From NCBI RefSeq assembly GCF_004135975.1, contig NZ_CP026538.1, positions 682,001 to 746,000 on the forward strand: a stretch of DNA of 64,000 bases. Direction: 5' to 3'. The stretch is from Solidesulfovibrio carbinolicus (GTDB lineage Bacteria > Desulfobacterota > Desulfovibrionia > Desulfovibrionales > Desulfovibrionaceae). The first letter of the stretch is position 1, and each line of letters opens with the position of its first letter. Positions 6,391-60,124 of this stretch are shown piece after piece. The position numbers were made by a program, and so were the translations under genes. The notes below the pieces were generated by a model. It was not told the DNA's origin, searched no databases, and worked only from the letters and a program-made list of their open reading frames with translations.

Positions 6391-6447
6391 CGCCGCATCC
6401 CGTGCGCCCAGGCTTTGGCCGGCGCGACAGCGAGCAACGAGGACGCC

Positions 6448-6789
6448 ATGCACTACGACATCGTGTTTCATCTCGATAAGGGTCAGGACGAGCTGAACAT
6501 TGCGCTGAGCAACATCGCCAATTACCTCAAGGCCTTGGCTGATGAACAGTTCACCGCCGTGCTGCTGGTCAACGGTCCGGCCATCACGCTCATGGTCAAG
6601 GACGCCGACAACTGCGCCAAACTGACGGCGCTTTGCGAACAAGGGTTGGATGTGCGGGTGTGCAACAACGCCCTGACCCATTTCGGCATCGCCCCGGCCG
6701 AGCTGTGCCCCTGCTGCCGCATCGTGCCGGCCGGCGTGGTGGAGCTGGTCGATCTGCAGCGCCAGGGATTTGCCTACGTCAAGCCTTAG
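6448..6789 (+). CDS. DsrE-family protein
   Basis: 113 residues from the ATG at 6448, preceded by an ACGAGGA site. The sequence fits the small DsrE/DsrF-like fold: an N-terminal beta strand (YDIVFHLD), a long helix, VLLVNGPAI, a cysteine loop (VCNNALTHFGI) and the terminal VPAGVVELVDLQRQG typical of sulfur-relay relatives. Extra cysteines occur as LCPCCR. Family members handle persulfide or act as small redox carriers; the exact role is unknown. The next gene starts 13 bases later, suggesting co-transcription. Confidence 0.85.
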   Translation: MHYDIVFHLDKGQDELNIALSNIANYLKALADEQFTAVLLVNGPAITLMVKDADNCAKLTALCEQGLDVRVCNNALTHFGIAPAELCPCCRIVPAGVVELVDLQRQGFAYVKP

Positions 6790-59544: not shown

Positions 59545-59611
59545 TGAACAATAATGGTTCCAGCCTGTTGCCCGCGAAACGCCGGCGGCGCTTTTCGTGG
59601 ACGCGGCGCTA
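59545..59611. repeat. Diverged copy of the 6283-6390 element
   Basis: AATGGTTCCAGCCTGTTGCC, CGCGAAACGCC and CGCTTTTCGTGGACGCGGCGCTAG align in order with the right two thirds of the element at 6283-6390 (ATGGTTTAGCTACGTTGCC, ACGAAATGCC, CGCTTTTCGTGGACGCGACACTAG). The left terminal repeat is not clear here. Its terminal CTAG supplies the stop codon of the selenoprotein gene on the minus strand. Confidence 0.6.
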
Positions 59612-59929
59612 GAAATTGAGGATGCGGTCGGCGGCCTTCATGGCCGCGTAGAGGAAAGGCATGTTGGACAGGGTCACCGGCGCTTTCGCCTCCACGCCGT
59701 GGAGGCCCAGGCACTTGCCTCAGGCGGCGAGCACGCCTTCGCTTAAGCCAAAGAGCTTGGCCTGCTCGGCGATGGGGAAGGTCGGGCTGTCGCCAGCGGT
59801 CAGGTCCACGGCCGGGCCATTTAAGAAGATGGTGACGTCCTCGCCTTCGTTAAGCAGGAAATTCCCAAAGCGCACGGCGTTCCATTTGATCTCGGGATCG
59901 GGGCTGGAAAGCACGATAAGTATTTGCAT
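59609..59929 (-). CDS. DsrE-like selenoprotein (in-frame UGA as Sec70)
   Basis: 106 residues if UGA is read. From the ATG at 59929 behind CAGGAGGCATC, the frame gives MQILIVLSSPDPEIKWNAVR, FGNFLLNEGEDVTIFLNGP and FGLSEGVLAA, then TGA at 59722-59720, and continues GKCLGLHGVEAK to TAG at 59611-59609. The DsrE-family likeness runs across the UGA, which sits where a CxxC first cysteine would be (U-G-K-C, residues 70-73). Thirteen bases after the UGA a perfect 8-bp hairpin resembles a bacterial SECIS. A UxxC redox site is predicted. If not recoded, the product would stop at 69 residues. Confidence 0.8.
59688..59706 (-). promoter_or_regulatory. SECIS-like hairpin
   Basis: On the minus strand GCCTCCAC and GTGGAGGC pair perfectly around a GGC loop, starting 13 bases after the UGA. 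Bacterial SECIS loops lie about 16-37 bases downstream with a G in the loop; both conditions are met. Confidence 0.65.
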
Positions 59930-60124
59930 GACTGATGCCTCCTGGCAAAATCGATAGATAAAATCGATGGCAGGAGCAAGCCGTGAAAAAGGCCGGCCGC
60001 GCCCGGAGGGGCGTGGCCGGCCGATGATTTGTCCAACAGACGGGGTGCGGAAGCCGGTGGTGCCGTCAATCACGGTGAACGAGCGCTTGGCGTTCGGCCA
60101 ACAGAGGACCGCTCCCGCTGAACG

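Follow-up and report, generated by a model that had tools for sequence, protein, structure and literature searches.

A DsrE-like gene of Solidesulfovibrio carbinolicus with a conserved in-frame UGA, a probable selenoprotein gene

DsrE-like selenoproteins have stood in published tables for twenty years without an assigned function. In excerpts of the literature, the family is listed in 2005 with the motif UxxC (PMC1088965), appears again in 2006 (PMC1794560), is given in 2008 as DsrE 1 and 2, with UxxC (PMC2398784), and recurs in 2022 as a DsrE-like selenoprotein, UxxC (PMC9312934). A 2026 review, likewise as excerpted, has UxxC and describes the functions of this group of families as largely uncharacterized (PMC13188914). 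Proteins of the same family have been tied to sulfur or selenium: according to the excerpted part of one paper, Allochromatium DsrE-Cys78 binds sulfur and transfers it to DsrC, and Cys78 of E. coli TusD is reportedly the one essential Cys (PMC3397948). YedF, in an excerpt of its source, combines a DsrE domain with a second domain and is linked to selenium metabolism (PMC5322559). The excerpts of three further papers (PMC12013277, PMC13293266, PMC5109826) contain nothing on a DsrE selenoprotein, and a search on YchN with DsrE and cysteine found no paper.

Here, we describe a gene of this kind in a 64,000-nucleotide stretch of Solidesulfovibrio carbinolicus DNA (hereafter the window), part of a 4.69-Mb genome. 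Like the published DsrE-like selenoproteins, it combines a PF02635 domain with an in-frame UGA, the motif being UxxC in four of those five papers as excerpted. Its relatives differ from the published family in that UxxS, UxxL and UxxR also occur, a comparison made with the excerpted published tables. The gene's main features are as follows.

59609 to 59929, minus strand: putative DsrE-like selenoprotein gene, 106 codons plus a TAG stop, with selenocysteine (Sec) at codon 70; start ATG at 59929-59927, TAG at 59611-59609
59720 to 59722, minus strand: in-frame UGA at codon 70, the sole internal stop, read as Sec from comparison
59711 to 59713, minus strand: TGC codon of Cys73, three residues after Sec (+3); replaced by Leu, Ser or Arg in 18 of the 71 Sec genes compared
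59938 to 59943, minus strand: ribosome-binding site AGGAGG, 8 nt 5' of the ATG, assigned from sequence

The preliminary description of this DNA had pointed to a 106-codon frame with a good ribosome site, broken only by a TGA at codon 70 that forms the first position of a CxxC-like motif (U-G-K-C), and all of these elements are present in the sequence. It had also expected standard annotation to report a 69-residue fragment; the standard frame indeed stops at the UGA, and conventional gene calling would therefore return a fragment. We read the gene as probably encoding a selenoprotein of the DsrE/YchN fold in which UGA70 is decoded as selenocysteine, and we put the probability of this reading, from sequence comparison, at roughly 0.9. 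The gene would thus add to the DsrE-like UxxC selenoproteins in print since 2005, and what is new is the absence of the +3 Cys from a quarter of the Sec genes compared (18/71). Among papers retrieved for DsrE selenoproteins and for selenocysteine in Desulfovibrio magneticus (mostly open papers), neither this gene nor the +3 variants is dealt with in any title or opening of an abstract.

With C read for U, residues 1-106 match PF02635 (DsrE/DsrF-like) at 32.3 bits, against a gathering cut-off of 22.7. An AlphaFold2 model from an alignment of 77 sequences (pLDDT 98.4, pTM 0.91) has a predicted strand at 66-70 and a helix at 71-76, with Sec70 at the joint. Foldseek with this model returned YchN (1jx7) first (E 1e-5, TM 0.85), then DsrE/DsrF-like entries, the top five rows all being YchN and DsrE-like entries; a single-sequence search of the PDB at E up to 1 gave only pilus proteins over partial lengths, and no DsrE-family row. 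In a profile alignment, column 70 lies over the first Cys of the YchN CKTC motif, which is Cys78 by hand count. E. coli YchN resembles the window protein in predicted fold and in its C-K-T-C, which aligns with Sec70-G-K-Cys73, but it has Cys where the window protein would have Sec and is about 22% identical.

Two other described systems compare less closely. TusD and DsrE of TusBCD/DsrEFH have a single essential chalcogen residue at the position assigned to Sec70, whereas none of the scanned neighbors of the window gene encodes a second or third subunit. A TusD identity was rejected, since the TusD model TIGR03012 gave no match at E up to 1 and neither tusBC nor dsrFH was found among the neighbors. 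YedF shares a DsrE domain with CGxC and a tie to selenium, but its model (TIGR03527) spans two domains, SirA and DsrE. It was the sole NCBIfam row at E up to 1, and a YedF identity was likewise rejected because the match reaches 12.2 bits of a required 110, covers the DsrE part of the model only, and comes from a protein of 106 amino acids. A true YedF is encoded elsewhere in the same genome. A second DsrE-like frame lies at 6415-6789 on the plus strand of the window; it is Cys-only, with the motif VCNNAL, and has a weak YedF match of 22.8 bits, below the cut-off.

The in-frame UGA is widely conserved. The closest named relative of the gene, from Solidesulfovibrio magneticus UBA7700, is 98% identical, and codon 70 is TGA at 19 of 19 loci on assembled genome contigs, including one (L016) with extra stops and a garbled 3' part. 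Within the genus, 9 of 14 genomes carry a match (12 matches in total, each with one TGA, one of them partial); one of the five genomes without a match to the gene is 69% complete. Across the class, 73 of 348 genomes match, and an in-frame TGA is present in 79 of 87 matches (three with a second internal stop), part of which were read base by base. The other eight comprise five that on reading are Cys forms (G286, G036, G044, G150:C96, G159) and three fragments missing codon 70 (one each in G294, G129 and G098). At the level of the phylum, 80 of 395 genomes match, and among 44 stretches read there, more distant groups appear with both Sec forms (UGVC, UKKA and others) and Cys forms (CGTC and others). 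Searches beyond these genomes returned four haloarchaeal DsrE proteins (33-35% identity) from plasmids and no homologs from phages.

A profile search of the collected loci gave 112 distinct DNA matches, 78 of them above 100 bits. After one partial locus (L031) was dropped and four rows at ≥95% nucleotide identity were merged, 73 non-redundant genes were left, the window gene (L020) included. Codon 70 is TGA in 71 of them and a Cys codon (TGC) in two, L089 and L131, the latter being the same gene as L140. The proposed check for Cys or Sec at column 70 of the homologs is thereby answered in favor of recoding, with more Cys homologs at greater distance. The gathered set also reveals fixed residues, one naturally occurring replacement of Sec by Cys accompanied by a changed hairpin, and a frequent lack of the +3 Cys: the motifs of the 71 Sec genes are UGKC (51), UGKL (10), UGKS (4), UQKS (3), UGKR, UGRC and UGSC (1 each), so that the +3 Cys is kept in 53. 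Base changes are biased to third positions on either side of the UGA, and all 53 ungapped genes have a stop at codon 107. Broken relatives exist as well (L016/L128, L117, L134).

The preliminary description had also noted a perfect 8-bp hairpin 13 bases past the UGA, which is present in the sequence and which, judging from the comparison that follows, is under selection.

59688 to 59706, minus strand: SECIS-type hairpin starting 13 nt past the UGA; 8-bp stem here (59706-59699 pairing with 59695-59688), 7 bp conserved; loop GGC

Over the 71 Sec genes, 519 of 568 stem pairs form, compared with a mean of 405 and a maximum of 432 in 2,000 draws from a null in which synonymous codons were sampled with weights taken mostly from the usage of the gene concerned. 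All eight pairs form in 26 genes, seven in 42, six in 2 and five in 1; some individual genes barely exceed their own null, so little weight can be placed on the pair count of any one gene. In 39 of 71 genes the outermost pair (17-35) does not form, which makes the conserved stem 7 bp rather than 8. Pair 19-33 covaries, being paired in 65 of 71 genes (AU 32, CG 26, GC 4, UA 2, GU 1). The loop starts with GG in all 71, which is not independent evidence because the same two bases open the Gly78 codon.

An alignment of 23 sequences (a set of 25 minus L011 and L019, which differ in length) has 93.5% of its stem cells paired, a fraction that falls to 28-49% when the partner is slid by 1 to 3 columns. 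None of 500 shuffles reached its covariation score or its number of cells changed on both sides, and there is no excess in pairs changed on both sides (416/500 shuffles) or in pair types (383/500). RNAalifold also predicts this stem, its covariation term being only -0.09. Third positions behave in the same region as follows: where the residue is the same, agreement at codons 73, 75-77 and 79 is 0.89-1.0 vs a gene median of 0.57 (500 gene pairs >70% identical, drawn from 53 ungapped genes and not mutually independent). Codon 78, whose third base lies in the loop, is free at 0.38; codon 80, with its third base in pair 19-33, is at 0.70, and the value for codon 74 is inflated by Met. As a single sequence the hairpin has a free energy that is ordinary for a GC-rich gene (z -1.0), and Rfam gave no selenocysteine-insertion family either in the whole window at the gathering threshold or in 59600-59780 at E up to 10. 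The proposed recoding is thus carried by the comparative tests, the energy of the hairpin alone being unremarkable.

The two Cys genes among the 73 differ in how much of the hairpin they retain. In L089, TGC replaces TGA, the loop reads GC (Ala for Gly78), and three pairs are missing (5/8 formed); L131 keeps the loop GG and 6 of 8 pairs. In a tree of 100 rows, 84 of them Sec and 16 Cys, built from few columns and with 30 of 97 inner branches open, L089 stands beside L083 within the Sec clade (support 100/90). With a midpoint root, L131 is basal to the main clade, so that its Sec/Cys change may have run in either direction. SelA is kept in the genomes of both.

The selA, selB, selC and selD genes, whose presence had been suggested as a check, were all found in the window genome, each above its cut-off (SelA 606 bits, SelB 361, SelD 332, tRNA-Sec 83). 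Three more tRNA-like places there lie narrowly above 47 bits (48-49). In 14 control genomes, the SelB, tRNA and SelD models match in all 14 and exceed the cut-off in 2, 5 and 2, respectively, and SelA matches in 4 and exceeds it in 1. The genome's selD (L045, G000:C1:2303906-2304832) has an in-frame TGA of its own.

We then considered SelA in 80 genomes chosen from those with a match to the gene. It is over the cut-off in 66 of 69 UGA carriers (of the window group or more distant) and in 10 of 11 Cys-only genomes, so SelA cannot be used to tell Sec and Cys forms apart; its presence, which Sec requires, is nearly universal among the UGA carriers. Genomes in which SelA was not found over the cut-off are G012 (220 contigs), G142 (810 contigs) and G021, all with UGA, and G625, with Cys. 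G021 has 3 contigs and is 95% complete, and its best SelB match (E 1.6e-56) is below the cut-off; its gene, L083, nevertheless has a UGA with an intact hairpin. SelB matches in 149 of 149 genomes searched in the family, in 126 over the cut-off. In two genomes the machinery lies near a UGA gene, with selA about 4 kb away in G053:C55 and selB about 6 kb away in G098:C1.

Upstream of the gene are a 124-amino-acid protein that matches no Pfam family, a dual-specificity phosphatase and a PPDK/PEP-utilizer protein; an MltA lytic transglycosylase lies downstream. No shared partner was indicated among the neighbors of the 41 loci compared, in which neighbors are conserved within the genus only. In other genera, matches within about 4 kb are few and are long proteins at 29-41% identity and varying distances, and a protein of 124-131 amino acids lies near three distant homologs. 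By eye, a GC-rich inverted repeat followed by TTTTT at 60022-59986 on the minus strand looks like the end of the previous transcription unit (a scanner gives a repeat on the plus strand only), and this apparent terminator suggests that the gene is probably transcribed alone, as a single unit. The scanner's sole sigma-70-like site overlaps the start codon and is not the promoter proposed here. A candidate element lies farther upstream.

59954 to 59968, minus strand: palindromic dyad ATCGATTTTATCTAT (ATAGATnnnATCTAT-type) at -39 from the start codon, an operator or promoter candidate

With ≤1 mismatch allowed, the pattern ATMGA-(2 to 8)-TCKAT is present within the 80 nt preceding 25 of 70 Sec genes, other genera included, where 100 mononucleotide shuffles gave a mean of 2.75 and at most 8, an excess that is inflated because some of these sequences had served to define the pattern. 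Its fixed position is the stronger sign, with 20 of the 25 at -38 to -40 from the start; the dyad is perhaps an operator over a promoter. The strict form ATMGATNNNATCKAT occurs once in the window genome, at the DsrE-like gene, and a regulon was rejected for this reason. The looser ATMGANNNNNTCKAT occurs at 14 places in the genome, and the one other place that was read is inside a long open frame.

Taken together, these data are consistent with the following mechanism. A ribosome with SelB and Sec-tRNA would decode UGA70 as selenocysteine owing to the hairpin 13 nt downstream, a step that is well supported by the comparison of related genes. Sec70 would then sit between the end of a strand and a short helix, at the position of YchN Cys78 and of the sulfur-carrying site of DsrE and TusD; this placement is supported by the profile alignment and the predicted fold. 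The selenol may take up sulfane sulfur as Se-S and hand it to an acceptor thiol, the small carrier acting as a one-residue relay and not as an obligatory Sec/Cys redox pair. Given a selenoprotein, we make this one-residue sulfur-carrier step, by analogy with TusD and DsrE, our first choice for function, at about even odds, because of the matching position and the +3 Cys missing in 18 of 71 genes. Against it stand the retention of that Cys in the other 53 and the lack of a linked sulfur-transfer partner gene. The broader proposal that Sec70 acts without a partner Cys, in a single-selenol sulfur relay widespread among sulfate reducers, is put forward more tentatively. If it is true, Se-S chemistry would occur in a DsrE-fold carrier where DsrE and TusD use Cys persulfide, and a selenium-dependent step in cytoplasmic sulfur trafficking would have its own promoter and operator.

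The preliminary description had left the function as a UxxC redox protein or carrier; the carrier half is now favored, and the redox half is weakened. As an oxidoreductase acting on peroxide, polysulfide or disulfides, the protein would attack through Sec70 and resolve through Cys73. This ranks next but is rather unlikely, even given a selenoprotein: the window copy and the majority of relatives have UGKC, and the published tables, as excerpted, give the family as UxxC, but Leu, Ser or Arg stands at +3 in UGKL, UGKS, UQKS and UGKR genes and a more distant Sec group reads UKKA. Since the +3 Cys is so often missing, a sulfur carrier and a redox pair should be separable by simple variants.

One further possibility, improbable on present evidence even if the protein contains selenocysteine, is that it binds or senses mercury, arsenic or another soft metal, or takes part in selenium handling, in place of sulfur transfer. 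ArsR-like genes (labeled by eye) are present near two distant homologous loci, L136 with DUF5714 and L140 with a TauE exporter, and YedF, tied to selenium in the excerpted source, is encoded elsewhere in the window genome; no such neighbors are present among the window genes scanned, however, and both loci belong to other groups, L140 with a Cys form and L136 with a Cys/Sec pair. It is very improbable that the UGA merely terminates translation, or marks a decayed pseudogene, and leaves a 69-residue product: the standard frame does end there and broken relatives are known, but comparison argues strongly against this through a TGA conserved across many families, Cys in the exceptions, and selection both downstream and in the hairpin.

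Some distant loci hold two DsrE-like genes. L135 (5662-6332), L136 (5905-6654) and L138 (5840-6566) each have a Cys form (CGTC) and a Sec form (UGVC or UKKA) in tandem, as if the two encoded different subunits, and in L136 the DUF5714 gene is upstream of the pair. At L050, a partial second copy of the 3' part (G098:C1:4107134-4107241, columns 71-106) lies downstream of the full copy, at a distance of about 200 nt.
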